Positions 50,912-61,199 of a stretch of DNA of 64,000 nt are shown here, one piece after another. This stretch comes from Carboxylicivirga fragile. GTDB lineage: Bacteria; Bacteroidota; Bacteroidia; Bacteroidales; Marinilabiliaceae. A model generated the notes under the pieces. The model had not been told where the DNA came from, ran no database searches, and saw only the letters and a list, made by a program, of their open reading frames with translations. Within the stretch, counting starts at the first letter, position 1. Every line of letters starts with the position of its first letter. The position numbers and the translations under genes were made by a program. The DNA is taken from assembly GCA_025499625.1 (NCBI GenBank), contig JAFMVD010000001.1:124001-188000 (forward strand), in the 5' to 3' direction.

Positions 50912-51883
50912 TTACTCTACTTGACCAGCTTTTATAGAAAGCCCTTGTGTTTCCATACAATGTTCATAAATATTCATGACCAATCCATCATCAGAAATGC
51001 TTACATAGGTCCATGCATTTACATCAACGCCATAAAATTTGATACGAGTAGCTATATAGCCTGATTTACCAAATTGCTCTTCATGTACAATCGGAATAGC
51101 ATAAGCATCACCATTTGATTCAAACCACTCGAAACTTTTCTCGTTAATAATTTCATCTTCCTCAAGGAAGTTGATATAATTAACGCCATCAATTACTTTA
51201 TATGCAATCTTTGCAGCTTTTGGATCTAAGGTTAATTTATTATCCGGTCGTAACCAAATACCAGTCCAGAACCTTTGTACAGGCCAATCATCAGTAGCAC
51301 TATACCAATAAAAATCAAAACCTTGCCATGTTAAATCACCATTAGTCATTGGGTTCAACTTAGCCCAACTACTAGTCGCATCCATCCATCCCCAGAAACC
51401 TCCTGTGAAGAAATTAAATATTGGATCAGGACTAAGACGTTCTAGTTTGCAATTAATGAAAGTATTGTTGATTGCTTTATCTATTTCGGTTAAAGTGAGA
51501 TCAAAAGTATAAGTAACCGTACCAAATGGTATTTTGCTACAATCGATTAATAACAACTCATAATCCTGACTATCATTGCCTTTATTAAGTAGTACATCAC
51601 CATTAATCTCTACAATAGAACCTTCAGGCAAATTAGAGTTACTAATTTCTGCCTTATATCTCACATCTGCAGGCAAAGAAATTGTTGATTCAAATTTAAC
51701 CGTGTAATACTGTAATTTATCAAATTCACCAATAATCTGATTAGTAGCATTAGCTTCTGTGCTTACTTCCACATCGGCAAGAGTTATCATCTCATCTTCG
51801 GGTAGCTCCATTTCGCATGATACCATTAAAGAGGCAAATGATATCAAGAAAATATATTTAAAGAAATTTCTTTTAGTTATCAT
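50912..51883 (-). CDS. Surface lipoprotein of unknown family downstream of SusD
   Basis: A 323-residue lipoprotein. The signal peptide ends in the lipobox LMVSC (Cys23, start MITKRNFFKYIFLISFASLMVSC). The ATG at 51883 was preferred: it overlaps the SusD stop by 11 bp and begins the signal peptide; the next upstream ATG (51922) only adds unrelated residues. I do not recognise the family. The N-terminal part looks like an Ig-like or beta-sandwich region, and the C-terminal part is Trp/Tyr-rich (GGFWGWMDATSSW, FYWYSATDDW), as in ligand-binding surface proteins. By position it fills the place of SusE/SusF and probably helps bind substrate. Function is inferred only from context. Confidence 0.6.
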   Translation of the reverse strand: MITKRNFFKYIFLISFASLMVSCEMELPEDEMITLADVEVSTEANATNQIIGEFDKLQYYTVKFESTISLPADVRYKAEISNSNLPEGSIVEINGDVLLNKGNDSQDYELLLIDCSKIPFGTVTYTFDLTLTEIDKAINNTFINCKLERLSPDPIFNFFTGGFWGWMDATSSWAKLNPMTNGDLTWQGFDFYWYSATDDWPVQRFWTGIWLRPDNKLTLDPKAAKIAYKVIDGVNYINFLEEDEIINEKSFEWFESNGDAYAIPIVHEEQFGKSGYIATRIKFYGVDVNAWTYVSISDDGLVMNIYEHCMETQGLSIKAGQVE

Positions 51884-53498
51884 ATCCTGGATTTTGCTGT
51901 AGGTTAGTATTGTTTTTAACATCAGTATCAGGTAAAGGCAAAATCAATCGCGTATTATTGAAATCAATGTTCTTTACTACTGAATTGCTTGATTCGTATC
52001 TGCTAAAGTTTTGTCCAAGCCTTAATAGGTCAAGCATTCTAACACCTTCTCCAATAAATTCTAAACGTTTTTCAAGCATTATCTCTTCTAAAGTAACCCC
52101 TTCAGGTAAGGCATCATCAAAGTAACGTTGCTTAACCAACGCGTAAGCATCAAAAGCTAAAGATGGTTGATTCGTACGTGCACACGCTTCAGCTTTGATT
52201 AAGGCAATCTCAGAGGCTCGCATTATATTAAAATCACCGAAACCGCTCTTGTACTTAATTTCAACATCTGCCGGATTATAAAAGAAATCGCGCAAATTAA
52301 CATTAAAGTCCTTTGAGGCAAATTTACCATACATCGCCGCTCCAATCATTTCATTACCCTCATCATCAAGGGTAGATTTTGCCAATCGGGTAGCCAGATC
52401 ATCACCTTCTACACCATTTGCTTTCCATGCTTCAGGATGATAAAAATAGTCTAGTCTTTTATCCGCAATACTAAACTCATTAATTACATCTTCGCTCACA
52501 CGTAATATGTCACCAGCATCATCATTATTAATATCCCAATGTTTAGCGTGAACATTATGCCCCATATCATCATCCAATGTGATGCTCATTAATATGGTCT
52601 CATCCAACTTTCGAGAAATTCCGTACTCTAAATCAATAAAATTATCTACTGGTTGAACCAAGGCCAATACAAAATCACATGATTCAATCGCCTTATTCAA
52701 AGCTTCTGCTGCCGTTATAGATACAGTTTCAGATAACTGGTAGGTATTGGAAGAGCCAACTGGTCCCGCTAAATTCATGTAAAAACGAGCTAATAAACCA
52801 TGAGCGTAGGCTTTAGAAAAAGTCAAACTAACCATTTCCTGCTCTATAACATCATGCTCTATAATCAAATTCTCAGCTGCGAACATTAAATCCTCATATA
52901 TTTGACGATATACTTCCATTGTTGTTGCTCTGGCAGGACGTAGGTCATAATCATTAACCAAAACCAACGGTACACCGCTATGCTCCGTATCTCTATTCGT
53001 TTCATGTACCGGTCGAGAATAGTAACTTAATAAGTCTAAATAGGTTGCTGCCCTTGCAACCCTGGCTTGCGCCTCATAATCTGCTTTTTCAACCTTAGCT
53101 GCCTCCGAATTCGGATCTAAGGGATCGTTAAGACCTGTTAATTCATTATTGATAATTAAATTACAAGCATCAATAATACCATAACATGCAATCCATGAAT
53201 TCCTGGACGCACTATTATCCGCTAAACCTTGATTGTAATCAAAAATCAAATTAAACTCCGAATAACCATCGCGTCTGTAATTCAAAATATCTGCACGTGC
53301 TTCTTGCATCGAAACATTATAGTAATTCACTCTATTAAACATAGTTTTTACATAAATAGAGTGTAGAGCAGCCTCACAAGATGGCTTGGTTGCCAGGATA
53401 TTATCTCTGGACAATACACTTTCCGGATTTCTTTCCAAGAAATCATCAGAACATGCAAATAGTGATATAATCGATAAAAAATATAATATCTTTTTCAT
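51873..53498 (-). CDS. SusD/RagB-family outer-membrane nutrient-binding lipoprotein
   Basis: A 541-residue SusD homologue. A lipoprotein signal (FLSIISLFACSDDFLERNPES) is followed by the SusD N-terminal pattern and TPR-like helices. The C-terminal RagB/SusD domain has FNIMRASEIALIKAEACARTNQP and EKRLEFIGEGVRMLDLLRLGQ. SusD acts as a lid on the SusC TonB-dependent transporter and binds the substrate. It is 10 bp downstream of susC and overlaps the lipoprotein gene. The substrate is not deducible from the SusD sequence alone. Confidence 0.95.
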   Translation of the reverse strand: MKKILYFLSIISLFACSDDFLERNPESVLSRDNILATKPSCEAALHSIYVKTMFNRVNYYNVSMQEARADILNYRRDGYSEFNLIFDYNQGLADNSASRNSWIACYGIIDACNLIINNELTGLNDPLDPNSEAAKVEKADYEAQARVARAATYLDLLSYYSRPVHETNRDTEHSGVPLVLVNDYDLRPARATTMEVYRQIYEDLMFAAENLIIEHDVIEQEMVSLTFSKAYAHGLLARFYMNLAGPVGSSNTYQLSETVSITAAEALNKAIESCDFVLALVQPVDNFIDLEYGISRKLDETILMSITLDDDMGHNVHAKHWDINNDDAGDILRVSEDVINEFSIADKRLDYFYHPEAWKANGVEGDDLATRLAKSTLDDEGNEMIGAAMYGKFASKDFNVNLRDFFYNPADVEIKYKSGFGDFNIMRASEIALIKAEACARTNQPSLAFDAYALVKQRYFDDALPEGVTLEEIMLEKRLEFIGEGVRMLDLLRLGQNFSRYESSNSVVKNIDFNNTRLILPLPDTDVKNNTNLQQNPGYDN

Positions 53499-53508
53499 AA
53501 TTCAATAT

Positions 53509-56500
53509 TTAGAAGGTTACATTTACGCCTAATGTCACAGATGTAACTGGTGGGATATCCGACCATGTAGTCTGATTATCTAGATTTAATTCCGGATCAT
53601 AGCCCTTAAATTTCGTCCAGGTAAATAGGTTTTCACCCATACCGTAAAAGCGTACATTAGATAAACCGATGGATTCTGAAATACGTTTAGGTAAAGTATA
53701 ACCGATAACTAGATTTTTCAACTTTAAATAGTCTGCGCGCTCCAAGAATCTACTTGATCGCCACCAAGCAAGAGTTGGATCACCAACATTGTACATTGGC
53801 ACTTCTGATTGCTGTCCTGGAGTATTCCAAGAATTCATATTGTCAACATGCATATTCCAACCGGGCTGTGCTCCATCGTTACTTAACACTCCCATCATGT
53901 CGTTATAAGCATAAGAGCCTACGTTGAAATAAAATAACATCGAGAAATCAAAGTTTTTATAGGTTAAGTCATTAACCCATGAACCGTAGAAGGTAGGTTC
54001 GGCATCGGCTCCATCTAAATCATTTTTAGCATCAAATTCACTGGCTTTATTCCAATCGTTAGTAACGGTTGTTTTTCCATTCCAGTTACCATTTTCATCT
54101 TCAATTTTCTGATACCAAAGCGGACTACCAGTAGTAGGATCTACACCTGCCCATTTACGCATTCTGTAATTAAACATTGAACCTCCGGTATCATAATAGG
54201 CTTGCCCATTATAGTTGTTTCCGTACCATTCTTCAATGTTGTTTTTATTGCTTGTCAGAGTAACAGATGTCTCCCATGAGAAATCGCTTCTACCAATAAC
54301 TTGCGCTCCCAACATAAGCTCGATACCTTTGTTAGATATCTTACCCACATTTTCCATACGAGAAGTAAGACCAGTAGTATATGGTAACTGTCTCCACATT
54401 AATAAACGATCACTGGTTCGGTTATATAATTCGACGGTTCCCCAAAAACGGTTTAACATTTTAAACTCAACAGCTATGTTGGAATTGATATTACCTTCCC
54501 AACCTAAATTAAGATTTTCAACCTGATCTAATTCTGCACCAGCAGTATTATTATATTTACCATCTAGAGTGTATGTTGACTGCCAGGCATAATTACCAAT
54601 TGCGTCATTACCACTCACACCATAACTACCTCTTAATTTCAATGAATTAATCCAATCAACGCTTGACATGAATTGTTCTTCGCTCAAACGCCAAGTAGCA
54701 CCCACAGACCAGAAATTACCATAACGATTGTTGGGCCCAAAGCGACTTGAACCATCACGTCTGAAACTACCACTTACATAGTACTTATCCAATAAGCCAT
54801 ATTCCAATTGACCTAAGGCTGAAACTCTGGCATTTTCGAATTGGCGGGATTTCATATCCTCTTTTATTTTACCATCATCTAAGTTCTGGGCAATTTGCCA
54901 CATTGGAAATTCCAAAGCCGTAGCATTTAAATCACGACGAACCCATTCTTCAGCTTCATAAACAGCCATGGCTTTAATATCGTGATTACCAAACTTCTTT
55001 TCAAAGGTAGCTTGTAAGAAACCAAATAATGTACGTTGGTTATTGCTTTCTCTGACATTCCTACCGTCTTCCAAAACTCCAGAACCGTTAACAGGATTGT
55101 AAAAATAATTTTCGTTTTGGCGGAAAAATTTTGCCGATCCCTTTGCTGTTAGTGTTAACTCTTCAATAGGTTTAATTGTAAGGTAAGGAGAAATGAGAAG
55201 ATTTGTATTATCCGTTTCTTCAACATAAGTTTCTCTTTCAGCCTTCAAATTGCTTTCACTAGATGATGATTTAGTATCCCAATGATATAATTTATTACCA
55301 TTTTTATCCAATACAAAATCGCCATATTGAGTACCATCAACAACTTCTTCTCCAGTTATTCCATATCGCTTATAGACAGGTACCGTAGGAGCATTAATAT
55401 ACGCTCTAAACATGCTTCTAACCGGGGTATACTTTTGATAACGACCATTTGTATTAATACCTATTTCAACATATTTGTTGATAGAAGTATTCATATTAAG
55501 GTTATAATCAATACGGGTATAATCGTTACCAATCTGAATACCTTCTTGATTAAAGAAAGTTAAGGATCCGTATAAATTATAATCGTCACCACCTTTTCCG
55601 AAGCTTAGGTGTAAATCATCAATATTCGAGGTTCTATAGGCTTCATCCACCCAATCCGTTGAATACAATTGGTTTACACCAGATCGTAATTTTCCATTAT
55701 CATCAAACGGTTGCATACTCTGAATACGTTTACCACCTTCCATTTCATAATAAGGATTGTAAAGCATAGTACTCAACAAATTATCATGAGCATATTGCTC
55801 CGGTGTGCCTGTAATATCGTTCGGGCCTGACATATACTTGGCCTTGTTTCTTAAACCTTCCCAAACTTTTGACGAATATTGATCAGCGTTCATCAAATCC
55901 TGATTGTCACTTGATTTCCACCCCATGGTTCGCTTGTAGCTGAGATTAATCTTTGCTTTTCCTTTACCTTTTTTTGTAGTAATTACAATAACTCCATTGG
56001 CTGCACGAGACCCATAAAGTGCAGCGGCAGCGGCATCCTTCAATACAGTAGAAGTTTCAATATCACTAATGGCTGGAATTGGCGCATTAGGTACTCCATC
56101 CACCACATACAAAGGTGCAGCTGAAGCATTTGCAGATCCAACACCTCGAATTCTAATTGCAGCTGAAGAACCAGCGGCTCCACTAAATGAAGATACCTGA
56201 ACACCAGCAACTCGACCTTGAAGTGCTGTTGAGATGTCGGTAGATGTGGTATTAGCCAGTTGTTCTGAACCTACAACCTCGGCACTACCCGTAAAAGTTT
56301 CTTTCTTAGCAGTACCATAGGCTACAACCATTACTGTTTCAAGGTTCTGTACATCCTCGGTTAAAGTAACATTCAGTACGTCACGCCCATCGATAGCAAT
56401 GGTTTGCATTTGAAAACCAATGAATGAAAAAACAAGCTTAGTTGCATCTGAGGGCACATTTAATTCATAGTTACCATTTACATCAGTAATGGTACCTGTT

Positions 56501-56982
56501 GTTGTTCCTTCGATGAAAACATTTACCCCTGGTAGCGGTAATCCACTGCTATCAGTAATTACACCTTTAATAACCTTTTCCTGCTGAGTAAGTTCTTCAC
56601 TTGCTACTTTAACTATGTTTTTCGATGGTTTAATAACCACATAGTCATCTACCACTTTAAATTCCATATTGGCATCCTTACAAATGAATTGATACAAGTC
56701 TTGTAATTCATTTGTGCCAGCTGGTACTTCAATAGTAGCATTCATATCCATCTCATCGTTACTTAAGATGGTTATAATACCGGTTTGACGTTCTACCTCT
56801 TGAAATAAATTTTTGTAGGTAGTTTCTGAAGTTTTGATGTTTACTTTCTGAGCCAGGCTAGTTGCCGCTACTTGAAATAATACACCAAACAATAAGATGA
56901 AGCTTATTCTCATAACTAACATCATTTTTCGCGGCGGTTGTTTAAAAAAACAGGAACCACGGCTTTGTCGTAAATTTTCCAT
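53509..56982 (-). CDS. SusC/RagA-family TonB-dependent receptor with N-terminal STN signalling domain
   Basis: A 1157-residue outer-membrane transporter. A long N-terminal leader, a membrane-targeting segment and a secretin/TonB STN domain (VNIKTSETTYKNLFQEVERQTG) are followed by a carboxypeptidase-like beta-sandwich (KGVITDSSGLPLPGVNVFIEGTT). The plug domain (LQGRVAGVQV, IRIRGVGSANASAAPLYVVDGVPN) and a beta-barrel ending in a terminal Phe (VTLGVNVTF) complete it. The STN domain is used to signal to FecR and the ECF sigma, both encoded upstream. The start at 56982 is retained; a second start at 56925 would remove the leader. The transported substrate is unknown. Confidence 0.95.
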   Translation of the reverse strand: MENLRQSRGSCFFKQPPRKMMLVMRISFILLFGVLFQVAATSLAQKVNIKTSETTYKNLFQEVERQTGIITILSNDEMDMNATIEVPAGTNELQDLYQFICKDANMEFKVVDDYVVIKPSKNIVKVASEELTQQEKVIKGVITDSSGLPLPGVNVFIEGTTTGTITDVNGNYELNVPSDATKLVFSFIGFQMQTIAIDGRDVLNVTLTEDVQNLETVMVVAYGTAKKETFTGSAEVVGSEQLANTTSTDISTALQGRVAGVQVSSFSGAAGSSAAIRIRGVGSANASAAPLYVVDGVPNAPIPAISDIETSTVLKDAAAAALYGSRAANGVIVITTKKGKGKAKINLSYKRTMGWKSSDNQDLMNADQYSSKVWEGLRNKAKYMSGPNDITGTPEQYAHDNLLSTMLYNPYYEMEGGKRIQSMQPFDDNGKLRSGVNQLYSTDWVDEAYRTSNIDDLHLSFGKGGDDYNLYGSLTFFNQEGIQIGNDYTRIDYNLNMNTSINKYVEIGINTNGRYQKYTPVRSMFRAYINAPTVPVYKRYGITGEEVVDGTQYGDFVLDKNGNKLYHWDTKSSSSESNLKAERETYVEETDNTNLLISPYLTIKPIEELTLTAKGSAKFFRQNENYFYNPVNGSGVLEDGRNVRESNNQRTLFGFLQATFEKKFGNHDIKAMAVYEAEEWVRRDLNATALEFPMWQIAQNLDDGKIKEDMKSRQFENARVSALGQLEYGLLDKYYVSGSFRRDGSSRFGPNNRYGNFWSVGATWRLSEEQFMSSVDWINSLKLRGSYGVSGNDAIGNYAWQSTYTLDGKYNNTAGAELDQVENLNLGWEGNINSNIAVEFKMLNRFWGTVELYNRTSDRLLMWRQLPYTTGLTSRMENVGKISNKGIELMLGAQVIGRSDFSWETSVTLTSNKNNIEEWYGNNYNGQAYYDTGGSMFNYRMRKWAGVDPTTGSPLWYQKIEDENGNWNGKTTVTNDWNKASEFDAKNDLDGADAEPTFYGSWVNDLTYKNFDFSMLFYFNVGSYAYNDMMGVLSNDGAQPGWNMHVDNMNSWNTPGQQSEVPMYNVGDPTLAWWRSSRFLERADYLKLKNLVIGYTLPKRISESIGLSNVRFYGMGENLFTWTKFKGYDPELNLDNQTTWSDIPPVTSVTLGVNVTF

Positions 56983-56989
56983 AAATTTG
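56982..56989 (+). promoter_or_regulatory. Candidate -7 element for a + strand antisense sRNA
   Basis: TAAATTTG matches TAnnTTTG on the + strand directly at the susC start. The best upstream TTTG (56964-56967) is 14 nt away, shorter than the usual 19-21, so the promoter is a candidate only. Confidence 0.4.
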
Positions 56990-56995
56990 TAAATC

Positions 56996-57090
56996 TTGAG
57001 TTTATTAATTACCGGATAACTGTTGCGTGTTACTCCGGTCGAACTTAGTAGTCGGAGGATGCGGGAACATCCTCCGATTTTTTTTTAGTA
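56996..57090 (+). ncRNA. Candidate cis-antisense sRNA between fecR and susC
   Basis: On the + strand, opposite the leader of the susC transcript, lie two ordered hairpins. The first is ACCGGATAAC / GTTACTCCGGT (57011-57020 and 57029-57039, one bulged C, loop TGTTGCGT). The second is TCGGAGGATG / CATCCTCCGA (57052-57061 and 57068-57077, loop CGGGAA), followed by nine T's. There is no + strand gene for this terminator to serve, and on the minus strand no U tract follows it. The position matches PUL-associated antisense sRNAs described in Bacteroides (DonS type). The exact 5' end is a guess from the -7 element. Confidence 0.6.
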
Positions 57091-58242
57091 CATTCCTTTA
57101 ACTAGTATCGTTTTTCCATTCATTTCCACTTCTACTTTTGTTGTTTCTTCAATCATGCGCATAAAGAATTTAAAATCAGTCGATCTGCGCACTCCACCTG
57201 TAAAACGTTTTGTTCTTACTTCTTTGTTGGCAAAGAAAAATTCCACATCGTACCAGCGCGATAGTTTATTGGCCATATCATCCAAGGTCATTTCTTCAAA
57301 TCTGAAAATGCCGTCTTTCCAAGCAGTATATAACTCAACATCCACCTCGTTGACAAACATTTGATTAGACTTTTTATCCAAGCGTGCTTGCTGTCCGGGT
57401 TGAATAATGGTTTCCTTACCGTTTCGTATTACAGAAACACTACCTTCTACTAAGGTTGTTTCCTGAAGCATATCATCAGGGTAGCTCATTACGTTAAATT
57501 GAGTACCATACACCTTAACTTTGGAATATTCCGTTTTTACAATAAAGGGTTTCGTTTTATTCTGTTTTACATCAAATAATCCCTCTCCTATCAGGTCCAC
57601 TTGACGTATATCTCCAGTAAAAGCAACTGGGAATCTTAATTCTGATTCTGAGTTCAACCATACCTTGGTACCATCGGAAAGCACCAGTTGATATTCACCA
57701 CCACGTGGTACCTTTATGGTATTGAACTCAATCTTATCTAAACCAATATTGTTGTGATAACTTAATACATCCAAACTATCAGTTCCAATGATCTTTCCGG
57801 TAGAACTCTGAATCATTGTTTTATTATCACCATCCAAAACTAAATACTCTCCACTTCCCGTTTCAAGTATTGCCTTTGAGGCACCAGGTTGTACTGTCAA
57901 GTTAGCCAATTCTGTTGCTTGGTCATCTTTTGTATTAAAAATAAATAGTATTACAAATGCTATTACCGCTGCAGCGGCAACTGTAGCCGATGCATAAGCA
58001 AACCAAGGTTGAATACTAAGCTTTTTAGAACTGATAGTATTATTAATTCGATGCCAGGCAACATCCTTTTTTATCGATTTATATACACTAATCTCTTTTG
58101 TTTTGAGATATAAGGATTTGTAGTGCATATAATTCGCTTTGTTTTGCTCCGAATCATCTAACCAATTCTTAAGCTCCTGATGCTCTGTGTTGCTTAGAGT
58201 GCCATTCAGCTCTTTTATTATGTATTGCTCTAAATTTTCCAT
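57085..58242 (-). CDS. FecR-family anti-sigma factor
   Basis: A 385-residue FecR-like protein. A cytoplasmic N-terminal anti-sigma part (about 1-80) is followed by a membrane helix (YASATVAAAAVIAFVILFIFNT) and the periplasmic FecR domain (VPRGGEYQLVLSDGTKVWLNSESELRFP, GEGLFDVKQNKTKPFIV, GTQFNVMSYPDD). The C-terminal DUF4974-like part has DDMANKLSRWYDVEFFF and FMRMIEETTKVEVEMNGKTILVKGMY. It is thought to hold the ECF sigma inactive until the STN domain of the SusC-type receptor signals. It sits between the sigma and receptor genes with gaps of 153 and 102 bp. Confidence 0.93.
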   Translation of the reverse strand: MENLEQYIIKELNGTLSNTEHQELKNWLDDSEQNKANYMHYKSLYLKTKEISVYKSIKKDVAWHRINNTISSKKLSIQPWFAYASATVAAAAVIAFVILFIFNTKDDQATELANLTVQPGASKAILETGSGEYLVLDGDNKTMIQSSTGKIIGTDSLDVLSYHNNIGLDKIEFNTIKVPRGGEYQLVLSDGTKVWLNSESELRFPVAFTGDIRQVDLIGEGLFDVKQNKTKPFIVKTEYSKVKVYGTQFNVMSYPDDMLQETTLVEGSVSVIRNGKETIIQPGQQARLDKKSNQMFVNEVDVELYTAWKDGIFRFEEMTLDDMANKLSRWYDVEFFFANKEVRTKRFTGGVRRSTDFKFFMRMIEETTKVEVEMNGKTILVKGMY

Positions 58243-58395
58243 TATTATGCTTCTTCACAAGGCATAACTCAGGACCTCTTAAAAAGGGTGTCTCTATTTT
58301 AAACTTTTTTTAATGTTTTTTCACACAAGAATACTAATGCATTCGACTTAAGTATTTTAAGTACTAATATTTTTATAAGAAAAAGAAGAAAAGAG

Positions 58396-58941
58396 TCAAC
58401 AAAGTAATAATATCACCAAATGCAGGTGTTCATCAAGAAGTCGATGAGCACGTTTTAATTGGGACTTGACTGTGTTTATTGATATATCTAATTCGTCTGC
58501 TGCTTCCTGATATTTGAGGCCTGAAAGCACAACTAAATTAAACACATCAGCGCATGCAGGTGGGAGTCTATCAATCGCCGCTTGAACCAATTCAATCTTG
58601 TTTTTAACCTCTTCATCATCGTCAACCTGAATATATAAATCCTTTTCCCAGGAGAAATCCAAGTCCTCTAAATGTTCCGGTTTATTTTTTCTGATATACG
58701 AAAGACAAGCGTTTTTTACAGCCGTAAAAAGGTAAGCTCTTAAATTTTCAAGCACCTTATAATCATCACGATCCCATATTTTAACAAAGAGATCCTGAAC
58801 AATATCCTCAACAACATCGACCGAATGAATATATTTGGCTCCATAAATACACATTGGCCGATAATAACGGTCAAATAAGGTTTGAAAACCAACCTTTTTG
58901 TTCGTGGATAAACTATGTACAATATTCTGATCTGTTATCAC
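58396..58941 (-). CDS. ECF RNA polymerase sigma factor
   Basis: A 181-residue sigma-70 ECF factor with region 2 (FQTLFDRYYRPMCIYGAKYIHSVDVVEDIVQDLFVKIWD) and region 4 (LPPACADVFNLVVLSGLKYQEAADELDISINTVKSQLKRA). The start is a GTG at 58941, since an in-frame TAG lies two codons upstream and no ATG is available. With the FecR-like gene downstream it forms the cell-surface signalling unit for the SusC/SusD locus, and probably activates that operon when the receptor is occupied. Two direct repeats of GTCGAATATT precede the gene. Confidence 0.93.
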   Translation of the reverse strand: MITDQNIVHSLSTNKKVGFQTLFDRYYRPMCIYGAKYIHSVDVVEDIVQDLFVKIWDRDDYKVLENLRAYLFTAVKNACLSYIRKNKPEHLEDLDFSWEKDLYIQVDDDEEVKNKIELVQAAIDRLPPACADVFNLVVLSGLKYQEAADELDISINTVKSQLKRAHRLLDEHLHLVILLLC

Positions 58942-59047: not shown

Positions 59048-59311
59048 CTATCCAGCGTTAATAGCAAGGTTTAAATTATTGAAAGAAACATCGATAATTC
59101 CAACTTGCTTTGAGATAAACAAGCTGGTTGATTTAACCTCCTTTTCATCCGACATAACCTGAAAGTTAAATCTACACTCTTGTAAGCCTGTTGCATCATC
59201 CAAGGTCATATGTTTAACACATATCTGTTTCCTTTCAAAATACAAGAGTATTTTGGCAACTAAGCCTAATCCTTCTTCTGCTAATACTTCAATTCTGAAT
59301 TGGTTTTCCAT
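59048..59311 (-). CDS. Stand-alone ACT-domain protein, acetolactate synthase small-subunit-like
   Basis: An 87-residue single ACT domain. The pattern FRIEVLAEEGLGLVAKILLYFERKQICVKHMTLDDA, then an amphipathic strand and helix, resembles the N-terminal ACT domain of acetolactate synthase regulatory subunits (IlvN/IlvM/IlvH), which bind valine at a helix-start Gly. No catalytic acetolactate synthase gene is nearby. Its leader region holds two Ile-rich peptides with attenuators (59416-59475 and 59558-59608), strongly suggesting isoleucine/branched-chain control. Role is inferred: regulatory subunit for an unlinked acetolactate synthase. Confidence 0.75.
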   Translation of the reverse strand: MENQFRIEVLAEEGLGLVAKILLYFERKQICVKHMTLDDATGLQECRFNFQVMSDEKEVKSTSLFISKQVGIIDVSFNNLNLAINAG

Positions 59312-59359
59312 TTGCTTAGGTTTTAATCTTATTATAAAATTGATTACTTATCCATAACT

Positions 59360-59396
59360 AAAAAGGCCTTTCTCATTGAATGAGAAAGGCCTTTTT
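59360..59396 (-). terminator. Attenuator terminator 2 (upstream of the ACT-domain gene)
   Basis: A perfect 16-bp stem (59360-59375 and 59381-59396, loop 59376-59380) ends in a T run in the minus-strand RNA, 20 nt after the stop of leader peptide 2 and 49 nt before the ACT-domain start. Its 5' arm can instead pair with ATGAGAAA (59412-59419) at the leader stop codon over 8 bp, the layout of a two-state attenuator. Confidence 0.85.
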
Positions 59397-59415
59397 TAAA
59401 ACATTAGCAATTTTC

Positions 59416-59475
59416 TCATCCCGTATTCGGAATAATGATAATAATGCTAATAATGATATTTAATGTTGTCTTCAT
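59416..59475 (-). CDS. Isoleucine-rich leader peptide 2
   Basis: A 19-residue leader, MKTTLNIIISIIIIIPNTG, on the minus strand: eight Ile (three then five consecutive, written ATT/ATC) and one Leu. An upstream in-frame ATG at 59484 would add three residues; the ATG at 59475 is preceded by a GGAG-like run. Its stop codon overlaps the antiterminator arm of terminator 2. This is the standard leader-peptide attenuator design, so isoleucyl-tRNA scarcity would stall the ribosome here and permit read-through into the ACT-domain gene. Confidence 0.7.
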   Translation of the reverse strand: MKTTLNIIISIIIIIPNTG

Positions 59476-59484
59476 AATCTCCAT

Positions 59485-59521
59485 AATAAAAAAAGCCTTC
59501 CCGTTTGTGTGGGAAGGCTTT
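59485..59521 (-). terminator. Attenuator terminator 1
   Basis: An 11-bp stem AAAGCCTTCCC / GGGAAGGCTTT (59492-59502 and 59511-59521, 8-nt loop) is followed by seven T's in the minus-strand RNA. It lies 36 nt after the stop of leader peptide 1 and directly upstream of leader peptide 2. Confidence 0.85.
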
Positions 59522-59557
59522 GTTATATTTTTTTATCCAATTAGTTCCCTGTCGACA

Positions 59558-59608
59558 TTAACTAATGTCAATAATAATAGAAATAATAATGGATACAATA
59601 TTCTTCAT
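59558..59608 (-). CDS. Isoleucine-rich leader peptide 1
   Basis: A 16-residue leader, MKNIVSIIISIIIDIS, on the minus strand: eight Ile and one Val, mostly as ATT. It begins about a dozen bases after the predicted transcription start of a consensus promoter (59627-59657). A small hairpin GACATTA-GT-TAATGTC covers its last codons and stop. A GGGAA (59545-59549) just beyond the stop can pair with the 5' arm of terminator 1. It shares the IIISIII core with leader 2, suggesting duplication of an attenuator. Confidence 0.7.
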   Translation of the reverse strand: MKNIVSIIISIIIDIS

Positions 59609-59626
59609 TTTGTTCTTTTGTTGACA

Positions 59627-59657
59627 CAAACGTAGGTATAAATATTGCTTTAAACAA
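59627..59657 (-). promoter_or_regulatory. Consensus promoter of the attenuated ACT-domain gene
   Basis: On the minus strand TTG (59657-59655), a 20-nt spacer and TACGTTTG (59634-59627, exact TAnnTTTG) lie just ahead of leader peptide 1. It is among the best promoter matches in the window. Confidence 0.7.
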
Positions 59658-59771: not shown

Positions 59772-60209
59772 ATGTATAAATTCTTAATAAGCCTACTGTT
59801 CTTATCAGGTACTTTTGCACTTGGTGCTCAGGAATGGCATCACCAGATTGACAAAGTGAAAGAGCTTGCAAAGCAGGAAAACAAACATATTTTACTTGTA
59901 TTTCAGGGTTCCGATTGGTGCGCCCCATGCATGAAGCTGGAAAGGGATGTGTGGGAAAGCGAAGAATTCAAAATTTTTGCAACAGAAAATTTAGTATTAC
60001 TAAAAGCGGATTTCCCGAGAAAGAAGAAAAATGCTTTGAGTAAGGAACAGATAACTCATAATGAGCAATTAGCTGAACAATACAATACGCAAGGTTATTT
60101 CCCCTTGGTACTTGTATTAAATGACGATGGCAAAGTGCTTGGTTCAACGGCTTATAAAAAACTAAGTACAGAAGACTACATTCAATTATTAACTTCCTTT
60201 ATCCAATAA
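59772..60209 (+). CDS. Secreted thioredoxin-family protein
   Basis: A 145-residue exported thioredoxin-fold protein. A signal peptide (MYKFLISLLFLSGTFALGAQ) precedes a thioredoxin-like domain with the redox motif WCAPC (Cys50 and Cys53) in FQGSDWCAPCMKLERDVWES, a stretch seen in thioredoxin-like_7 proteins, and a conserved cis-Pro region (QGYFPLVLVLNDDGK). It would act in the periplasm as a disulfide reductase or carrier. It is the first gene of an operon with ApbE, DUF4266 and DUF3570 genes, with 3 bp to apbE. Confidence 0.88.
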   Translation: MYKFLISLLFLSGTFALGAQEWHHQIDKVKELAKQENKHILLVFQGSDWCAPCMKLERDVWESEEFKIFATENLVLLKADFPRKKKNALSKEQITHNEQLAEQYNTQGYFPLVLVLNDDGKVLGSTAYKKLSTEDYIQLLTSFIQ

Positions 60210-60212
60210 GTT

Positions 60213-61199
60213 TTGCGAAACATCCTGCTACTTCTTTTTATCTTTATTTGCTCCAACTCACTTTTTGCAAAAGAGACTTACAAACGTACGCTTTTATTGA
60301 TGGGAAGTCGTTTTGATATAACCCTTATTGCTAATGATTCAGTGCAGGCATCAAAATATATTGATATTGCTATAAACGAAATTTCGCGCATTGAATCGTT
60401 GATATCTTCATGGGATTCCAATTCTGAGACCTCCCTCATCAATGAAAATGCCGGTATCAAACCTGTGCCTGTTTCAAAGGAACTTATGGATTTAATTGAA
60501 CGATGTATCACACTTTCACGATTGACAGATGGAGCTTTTGATATAACGTTTGCATCGATGGATAAAATCTGGTATTTCGATGGAAGCATGACTCGTCTGC
60601 CATCTCAGAAGGACATAGACGCTGCCATTCAAAAAATTGCTTATCAGGACATGCTTATCAACAAGGAAAACAATACAATTTTCTTAAAGAAGAAAGGTAT
60701 GAAAATTGGTTTTGGTGGCATAGGCAAAGGGTATGCGGCCGACATGGCCAAAAAGAAATTAATAGATGAAGGTGTAACAGCTGGTATTATTAATGCCTCA
60801 GGTGATTTATGTACTTGGGGCAAACAAAAAAATGGTCAAGATTGGAAGGTGGCTATTACCAATCCTTTAAACAAAGCAAAAGCCTTTGCCTTAATACCTG
60901 TTGTTAACGGCGCTGTGGTAACATCTGGCTCATATGAGAAATTTGTTCAGTTTAATGGCAAGCGTTATTCACATATTATTGATCCTCGTACAGGTTATCC
61001 TTCTCAAGGTATAATTAGTGTCACCGTATTTGCTCCCCAGGCCGAATTAGCTGATGCCCTGGCTACTTCAATATTTGTAATGGGCATTGAAGTAGGCATT
61101 AATAGAATTAATCAACTTAAAAAGGTGGAATGTATCATTATTGATGAACTAGGAAAAGTACATACTTCAGATAACATAGATATTTCAAGTTATGAGTAG
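60213..61199 (+). CDS. apbE: FAD:protein FMN transferase (ApbE)
   Basis: A 328-residue ApbE. A hydrophobic N-terminal export segment is followed by the flavin-binding pattern LLLMGSRFDITLI, RIESLISSWDSNSETSLIN, the GGIGKGYAADMAKKKL motif, INASGDLCTWG, and the metal-binding SYEKFVQFNGKRYSHIIDPRTGYPSQG. The start is a TTG three bases after the thioredoxin stop. ApbE covalently attaches FMN from FAD to a Ser/Thr of target proteins in the periplasm. The usual target genes (Rnf/Nqr) are absent here; DUF4266 or DUF3570 in the same operon are candidates, unproven. Confidence 0.93.
   Translation: MRNILLLLFIFICSNSLFAKETYKRTLLLMGSRFDITLIANDSVQASKYIDIAINEISRIESLISSWDSNSETSLINENAGIKPVPVSKELMDLIERCITLSRLTDGAFDITFASMDKIWYFDGSMTRLPSQKDIDAAIQKIAYQDMLINKENNTIFLKKKGMKIGFGGIGKGYAADMAKKKLIDEGVTAGIINASGDLCTWGKQKNGQDWKVAITNPLNKAKAFALIPVVNGAVVTSGSYEKFVQFNGKRYSHIIDPRTGYPSQGIISVTVFAPQAELADALATSIFVMGIEVGINRINQLKKVECIIIDELGKVHTSDNIDISSYE

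Follow-up and report, generated by a model that had tools for sequence, protein, structure and literature searches.

Two predicted isoleucine attenuator units in series precede a lone ACT-type gene in Carboxylicivirga

Classical leader-peptide attenuators include those of E. coli ilvGMEDA, thrABC and his, and attenuation of this kind is usually described as having one attenuator per operon. In the accessible part of an account of Salmonella mgtCBR, two leader ORFs sense ATP and proline and act independently on transcription, and the stem-loops are described as not resembling intrinsic terminators (PMC3641672). A study of ErmB with two leader peptides concerns translational control, judging by its title (PMC8274638). 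Little on leader-peptide attenuation in Bacteroidota was found in the literature searched; the accessible part of a Flavobacterium transcriptome study gives clues for it upstream of amino acid operons (PMC9723704), and that of a B. thetaiotaomicron transcriptome study mentions leader-like small ORFs (PMC7366714). In the attenuator literature that we surveyed, mostly without subscription journals, mgtCBR was the only transcriptional leader-peptide tandem found, and no tandem for the same amino acid was found.

The window, by which we mean the whole 64,000-nucleotide stretch that was analyzed (G000:C52:124001-188000), belongs to a 5.6-Mb assembly, G000 being the window's own genome. The relative used for comparison, G018 (locus L004), is one record of an uncultured Carboxylicivirga, a genus that NCBI taxonomy assigns to Marinilabiliaceae; G000 is listed under the same genus as G018. 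On the minus strand, the region consists of a promoter-like site, leader 1, terminator 1, leader 2, terminator 2 and an 87-codon gene, in this order, and the sequence elements were located where an earlier sequence-only reading had placed them. In window coordinates, the features are as follows.

59627..59657, minus strand: Bacteroidota-type promoter-like site, TTG-N20-TACGTTTG, from the sequence; the relative is similar at the equivalent place, by eye
59558..59608 including the stop codon (ATG 59608), minus strand: leader peptide 1, MKNIVSIIISIIIDIS, 8 Ile in 16 codons; equal length and 8 Ile in the relative
59552..59571, minus strand: predicted hairpin across the leader 1 stop codon (TTGACATT/AATGTCGA); 2 compensatory pair changes and 1 one-sided change in the relative
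59534..59549, minus strand: unit 1 segment 2, GGGAACTAATTGGATA, from folding; identical in the relative
59488..59521, minus strand: intrinsic terminator 1 (AAAGCCTTCCC/GGGAAGGCTTT plus T-run), from the consensus scan and folding
59416..59475 including the stop codon (ATG 59475), minus strand: leader peptide 2, MKTTLNIIISIIIIIPNTG, 8 Ile in 19 codons; equal length and 7 Ile in the relative
59403..59451, minus strand: unit 2 segment 1:2 protector helix, ATTAGCA (59451-59445) with TGCTAAT (59409-59403), from folding; a compensatory G-C to C-G change in the relative
59380..59419, minus strand: unit 2 antiterminator, ATGAGAAA (59419-59412, containing the stop codon) with TTTCTCAT (59387-59380), from masked folding; 6 of 8 pairs kept in the relative
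59360..59396, minus strand: intrinsic terminator 2, 17-bp stem, AAAAGGCCTTTCTCAT/ATGAGAAAGGCCTTTT, from folding and our own scan; 1 compensatory change and 2 outer pairs lost in the relative
59048..59311, minus strand: 87-aa ACT-only protein, predicted to be of the IlvN type (small subunit of acetohydroxyacid synthase, AHAS), from hhalign and profile matches to IlvN-like frames

One intrinsic terminator is present in each unit, between the leader and what follows, and scans and folding together bear out the earlier claim of a terminator after each leader. A consensus terminator scan of 1.1 kb returned three terminator-like sites against 0.5 expected, terminator 1 among them, two of the three being this one hairpin counted on both strands. 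Terminator 2 was not picked up by the consensus scan and was picked up by a custom leader-terminator scan. The reading of eight Ile codons in each leader was accurate (8/16 and 8/19), and leader 2 has an additional in-frame ATG at 59484. The window holds five ATG-initiated ORFs of 8–25 aa with at least seven Ile codons, and a terminator lies downstream only for leaders 1 and 2; 50 shuffles of the window produced 26 such Ile-rich ORFs, none with a terminator. The ATHATHATHNNNATHATHATH (Ile3-x-Ile3) pattern occurs at seven sites in the 5.6-Mb genome, with seven in the backwards control, and the two leaders account for two of these seven, 133 bp apart. As for the consensus promoter proposed earlier, the TTG-N20-TACGTTTG site is present, and G018 has TTG-N19-TACATTCG at an equivalent position (read by eye), but the pattern alone is at chance level, with 2 matches in the window against 2.2 expected.

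No Rfam family reached its gathering score in the window. A permissive search placed Thr_leader (RF00506), an Ile/Thr leader, on all four Ile units of G000 and G018 at 28.7–36 bits against a threshold of 55, the G000 units scoring 30.6 and 36 bits. Phe_leader reached 34.9 on G000 unit 1, above Thr_leader there, PyrR and MicC outscored Thr_leader on the relative's stretch, and sub-threshold Thr_leader matches fall on the His units described below as well. These matches reflect a leader-like shape, not family membership.

On the plus strand, a thioredoxin-like gene and an ApbE-like gene (by eye) at 59772-61199 point away from the leader region. Downstream, at 51873-58941 on the minus strand, are an ECF sigma factor and FecR-like, SusC-like and SusD-like genes (the latter three by eye), the usual nutrient-uptake set of Bacteroidota. 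The ECF sigma gene lies about 106 bp past the ACT gene on the same strand in G000, and transcription of the ACT gene may read through into it.

To evaluate the switch, the transcript up to each terminator loop was folded with the leader masked by a ribosome, and the expected pairs between segment 2 and segment 3 were computed. Folding with and without ribosome masking, as the sequence-only reading had proposed, gave the classical attenuation pattern in both units. With a ribosome stalled at most Ile codons, the antiterminator has 6.9 pairs in unit 1 and 10.5–10.9 in unit 2 of G000, and 6.9 and 8.0–8.9 in the respective units of G018; a stall at the last Ile of unit 2 leaves 9.6 (G000) and 7.9 (G018). 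A ribosome at the stop codon reduces these values to 1.9 and 0.6 in units 1 and 2 of G000, and to 1.6 and 0.0 in G018. With no ribosome, the unit 2 antiterminator, held by the 1:2 protector, has 0.15 (G000) and 0.02 (G018) pairs, and that of unit 1, which in G000 is a 5-bp core only, partly forms, with 3.0 (G000) and 6.9 (G018) pairs. Because this short antiterminator partly forms without a ribosome, unit 1 may leak when untranslated. The partners of unit 1 segment 2 are the Ile-codon region or, when it is freed, TTCCC of terminator 1, which pairs with its GGGAA. For unit 2, the 8-bp antiterminator pairing that had been proposed, ATGAGAAA (59419-59412) with TTTCTCAT (59387-59380), was recovered. 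With the whole terminator in the fold, the terminator wins at equilibrium in every ribosome state, and the switch must therefore be kinetic. Segment 2 pairs more strongly with its own terminator arm than with that of the other unit in all four Ile cases, so the units look insulated, as two gates in series.

Shuffled sequences put these values in perspective. In a 500-shuffle control, the stalled-minus-stop difference was reached by 48 and 50 shuffles for units 1 and 2 of G000 and by 38 and 13 for those of G018, and the stalled value alone by 98 and 27 (G000) and 125 and 58 (G018). For the ilv leader taken as a comparison, 24 of 500 shuffles reach the difference and 48 the stalled value. The wider pair count of this control leaves G000 unit 2 with 2.7 pairs when the ribosome is at the stop codon. 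In sequence this rich in AT, alternative pairing within one unit arises by chance not infrequently, and the support from shuffles is modest; the comparative evidence from compensatory changes, presented below, is the stronger argument for it. As predicted from sequence, both G000 units fit a classical ribosome-mediated attenuator, and this assignment is well supported: each has an Ile-codon ORF, a terminator and an antiterminator that becomes available on stalling and is masked once the ribosome sits at the stop codon.

The same arrangement is found in G018, where a leader MKTSIIIISTIIINIC, a terminator, a leader MNLVHTIIITITIIIPLLE and a second terminator precede an 80-aa protein that is 60–61% identical to the 87-aa protein. 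Leader lengths are equal in the two genomes (16/16 and 19/19 codons), the G018 leaders contain 8 and 7 Ile, and Ile is common to both genomes at 6 and 7 positions. The gene itself shows saturated dS and a dN of 0.32 over 77 codons. Window proteins of at least 90 aa from 44–64 kb had no match at E 1e-3 within 19 kb around the G018 gene; the surroundings thus differ between the two genomes, and the promoter, both attenuators and the gene stay together as one unit. In G018, the gene stands alone, since the next downstream ORF is convergent. A clear orthologue, by protein, is present in 2 of 71 family genomes, namely G000 and G018. With the Ile codons, leader lengths and pairing kept in this one relative, the central claim of the sequence-only reading, tandem Ile attenuators before a lone ACT-type gene, was upheld.

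Stem arms drawn by hand from the folds show five both-side compensatory changes between G000 and G018: two in the unit 1 stop hairpin, and one each in the 1:2 helix, the stop hairpin and the terminator of unit 2. Two one-sided changes were also found, and G018 unit 2 has lost two antiterminator pairs and two outer terminator pairs. Unit 1 does not differ between the genomes in its terminator stem or in any of the 16 nt of segment 2. This covariation, drawn from only two sequences, offers modest support for conserved pairing. Unit 1 pairs GGGAACTAATTGGATA with CCTTCCC and unit 2 pairs ATGAGA with TCTCAT, and each of these is kept in both genomes. Because these unit-specific antiterminator and terminator sequences are each conserved, the comparison places both units before the G000/G018 split, with no recent duplication visible. 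An IIISIII core shared by the two leaders had been taken as a sign of attenuator duplication; this part did not hold, as the core is not common to the relative, whose Ile cores are IIIISTIII and IIITITIII, and the antiterminator and terminator sequences of the two units differ. Two further leads were set aside: GGGAACTAATTGGATA as a wider RNA motif gave six one-mismatch matches elsewhere, unrelated by eye, and the thioredoxin neighbor as a synteny anchor is found in 5 of 14 genus genomes (E 1e-20) and is absent from the gene-bearing relative.

The description of the gene product as an ACT protein stood on one kind of evidence and not on another. Pfam and NCBIfam gave no match above cut-off for the 87-aa protein, ACT included, and the relative's 80-aa protein matched Pfam ACT at E 0.019, below the cut-off, but profile-profile comparison supports the label, hhalign against 17 IlvN sequences giving a probability of 97.5 and an E of 6.5e-12 over 80 columns. 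From this match and the IlvN-like relatives, we infer that the ACT label is right and that the protein is of the AHAS small-subunit type. The protein ends after the ACT domain, without the ALS_ss_C domain that the genome's own IlvN has. When a two-sequence profile was run on a 393-genome order sample, 33 other genomes matched at E up to 1e-5, and the family search gave weak matches, at 20–25% identity, in 16 further genomes, all 16 being IlvN-like ORFs. Across the 45 loci examined (16 from the family search and 29 from the order sample), 43 have an IlvN-like ORF; neighbors were inspected at four loci, and each of these ORFs is immediately preceded, by eye, by an AHAS large-subunit gene. The idea that the 87-aa protein belongs to a wider family was dropped after searches of the 71-genome family, the 393-genome order sample and one contig scan, which returned one orthologue, that in G018. 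In other families of the order, loci L025, L029 and L041 carry short IlvN of 113–128 aa between ilvB-like and ilvC-like genes (by eye), the one at L025 without an ALS_ss_C match.

Two conserved Asn positions of IlvN bear on the effector site. Position 13 (87-aa numbering) is Asn in 40 of 43 IlvN (39 by script plus L041 by eye), Glu in G000 and Asp in G018; we equate it with N11 of E. coli IlvH, a residue of the Val site. The position 18 residues further, presumably N29 of E. coli IlvH, is Asn in 41 of 42 script-aligned IlvN, Cys in G000 and Asn in G018. With its changed Asn, the 87-aa protein may be insensitive to Val. The two genomes are 88.6% identical in the AHAS large subunit and 89.4% in IlvN, and the 87-aa protein thus evolves much faster than IlvN (60% versus 89% identity). 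An AlphaFold model from two sequences had a mean pLDDT of 50.8, too poor to use; a PDB profile search with the protein gave no ACT match, its matches looking like chance; and PADLOC returned none.

The absence of ilv genes nearby, pointed out in the sequence-only reading, was borne out: the ilvD-ilvB-ilvN-ilvC-leu genes lie on contig C22 and the ACT gene on C52 (names beyond ilvB, ilvN and ilvD by eye). This ilv operon has one leader, MKFNLSLILDIIIILVVIIT, with a terminator. Branched-chain leader peptides precede ilvD at 25 of 30 family loci scanned (by eye, with only the leader peptides scored), the 30 being taken from 67 family genomes with ilvD. Given the ilv leader and terminator in this genome and these 25 ilvD leaders, the clade seems to employ leader-peptide attenuation. 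The ilv operon leader contains Ile, Leu and Val codons, whereas the ACT-gene leaders are rich in Ile alone, and for this reason the ACT protein would be made when Ile in particular is short.

Stacking is not peculiar to the ACT gene and recurs before hisG. A covariance model (R1), built from the four Ile units and the ilv leader, was run on 71 genomes with strict filters and 50 candidates per genome. It led to adjacent units MQNFIHHHHHFYLQNR and MKTRQNHIHHHHHYFSIRMS, each with a terminator, before hisG in G017, and G000 itself has tandem hisG leaders, MKNCIHHIHHLFLPQVG and MLNNFHHHTHHHYLSSR. The two loci are:

G000:C57:35741-36591: tandem His locus of the window's own genome (L201)
G017:C37:334300-338000: tandem His locus of G017 (L146)

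In the family, hisG is present in 68 of 71 genomes; 65 loci were taken and 64 scored for a His leader with a terminator, giving 5 with none, 44 with one and 15 with two units. G037 and G038, in which two ORFs share one terminator, were left out of the doubles (17 by script, 15 retained). The window's genus, with 14 genomes, contributes 13 of these 15, G000 included; the other two are G029 and G034. The paired leaders of the 15 loci are roughly 100–140 bp apart. In the order sample, hisG was found in 73 of 139 genomes, and 66 non-family loci were taken and 65 scored: 14 have none, one of them (L246) with only 111 nt upstream, 47 have one, some of these single calls being weak, and four have two (G133, G101, G214 and G109, from three further families). 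In a control with a script of the same kind, 58 of 72 hisG stretches had at least one unit, whereas none of the 72 had one when read on the reverse strand, nor did any of 360 shuffles. Across the 15 family doubles, both-side changes affect 7 of 26 consensus pairs in unit 1, with 18 of 387 cells broken, and 0 of 17 consensus pairs in unit 2, with 8 of 252 cells broken. In 25 of 30 cases, pairing with the terminator of the same unit is stronger than pairing across units. The two G000 His antiterminators have 6.7 and 10.6 pairs without a ribosome and 0.1 and 3.4 with a ribosome at the stop codon. We read the His and Ile stacking as separate events.

The R1 model also gave an extra match antisense to unit 2 within the window (E 0.012) and 20 matches in 19 stretches away from ilvD. 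Several of these, L148, L149, L155, L158, L161, L163 and L164 among them, were rejected because on inspection by eye they resemble chance matches or terminators at gene ends. At L160 (G039:C28), around position 1742 of the turned strand, a Cys/Met-rich leader MTKMTYTMMCMCSCHVLQKGLIQ with a terminator precedes siroheme/sulfite reduction-like genes (by eye), a possible Cys or Met attenuator. At L156 (G026:C369), around position 1712 of the turned strand, a Met/Cys-rich leader MIFIMKNMTDCTMCSMNYT with a terminator precedes an O-acetylhomoserine sulfhydrylase-like gene (by eye), a possible Met or Cys attenuator.

Several other explanations of the leader region were weighed. Stems of the AAAGCC or AAGGCTT plus T-run kind seem frequent in these genomes (an uncounted impression), and they could simply be ordinary terminators of neighboring genes beside Ile-rich ORFs that arose by chance. 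We regard this as very improbable: the upstream genes, which start at 59772, run on the other strand, leaving no minus-strand gene that needs a terminator here; an Ile leader with a terminator appeared in 0 of 50 shuffles; and the arrangement is conserved in a relative without common neighbors. A single composite switch formed by cross-unit pairing would also place two adjacent Ile-rich units, expected to lie on one RNA, before the gene, but the own-unit duplexes are stronger than the cross-unit ones in 4 of 4 Ile cases, leaving this proposal with little probability. Somewhat less improbable, yet still unlikely, is that only the gene-proximal unit 2 works and that unit 1 is a relic or a mere second terminator. 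The antiterminator of unit 2 is the stronger of the two and its protector stays formed when no ribosome is present, and the short unit 1 antiterminator leaks when free; against a relic, however, the 16-nt segment 2 and the terminator stem of unit 1 are identical in the relative, its stop hairpin is kept through two compensatory changes, and leader 1 has kept its length and eight Ile in spite of the saturated synonymous sites of the gene.

A different question is what the switch controls. It may act as described while the 87-aa protein serves as a stand-alone Ile-binding ACT regulator or as the partner of another enzyme, an alternative to which we give a substantial share of the probability, somewhat short of an even chance. 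In its favor, the gene is on a different contig from ilvB and ilvN, Glu or Asp replaces the conserved IlvN Asn, and the protein has evolved faster than IlvN (60% versus 89% identity). On the other hand, those of its relatives that were detected and examined resemble IlvN (43 of 45 loci), and E. coli IlvM, an ACT-only AHAS subunit of about the size of the 87-aa protein, provides a precedent.

The reading that we prefer, and consider highly probable as far as the switch is concerned, is that two complete, insulated Ile-tRNA transcription attenuators in series gate one gene whose product is an ACT-only IlvN relative. Within each unit, the Ile-codon segment would pair with the segment near the stop codon (1:2). 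With ample Ile-tRNA, the ribosome would reach the stop codon and cover segment 2, and the terminator (3:4) would form. When Ile-tRNA is scarce, the ribosome would stall on the Ile codons and free segment 2, which could then pair with the 5' arm of the terminator (2:3) and let RNA polymerase pass. As the polymerase must pass two gates, read-through would be expected to multiply, with a low leak and a steep response. Attenuation in vivo and the multiplication of read-through are what we infer from the sequences, and a sharper response from stacking, as the sequence-only reading had suggested, is plausible. Once induced, the 87-aa protein might join or modulate AHAS (IlvB/IlvN, encoded elsewhere), so that synthesis of the isoleucine precursor could continue during Ile shortage; that it acts on AHAS at all we put at roughly even odds.

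A broader proposal is offered tentatively, as one that we think unlikely to hold in full. Series stacking for one amino acid might be a recurrent and hitherto unrecognized Bacteroidota route for turning graded tRNA charging into a near-digital switch, here driving a subunit swap in which Ile shortage alone would bring in a valine-blind ACT partner and free AHAS from feedback inhibition for as long as Ile limits growth as the scarce end product. If true, this ACT partner would provide a response beyond what the Ile/Leu/Val leader of the ilv operon can give. Stacking of attenuators for the same signal occurs at an Ile-rich leader and, as a separate case, upstream of hisG in four families belonging to one order, and it looks like a design that selection repeatedly finds. 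The data also suggest that leader-peptide attenuation is common in these Bacteroidota, and the target gene and the recurrence of stacking make this leader more interesting than usual. Two testable ideas follow: whether attenuators in series square the read-through and thereby sharpen the response to tRNA charging, and whether the cell uses a starvation-induced ACT-only AHAS partner with a changed effector site.

We file tandem attenuators for the same amino acid as a variant of known attenuation that is apparently new. Like the classical ilv, thr and his attenuators, each unit combines a codon-rich short ORF, a stop-codon segment with alternative partners and an intrinsic terminator before a gene of the same pathway; unlike them, two units for one amino acid stand in series here and control one small ACT gene, not a biosynthetic operon. 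The tandem arrangement before hisG likewise puts in series two leader-terminator units that share one amino acid, but it precedes a biosynthetic gene, has His codons, not Ile codons, and is more broadly distributed. The predicted product shares with IlvM and IlvN an ACT domain homologous over 80 columns, and with IlvM its ACT-only size; it differs in that its gene is not beside a large-subunit gene, in its lack of ALS_ss_C and in the replaced Asn. The Salmonella mgtCBR leader, in the accessible part of its description, is similar in having two short ORFs that both control downstream transcription, but the signals there are different ones, whereas here both leaders are rich in Ile and each is followed by a canonical intrinsic terminator (PMC3641672). 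Tandem riboswitches, such as that of B. clausii metE, also place two cis units with terminators in one leader; in contrast to the present units, they bind metabolites directly and involve no leader peptide, and metE, as described in the accessible part of the same source, senses two different ligands (PMC3641672).
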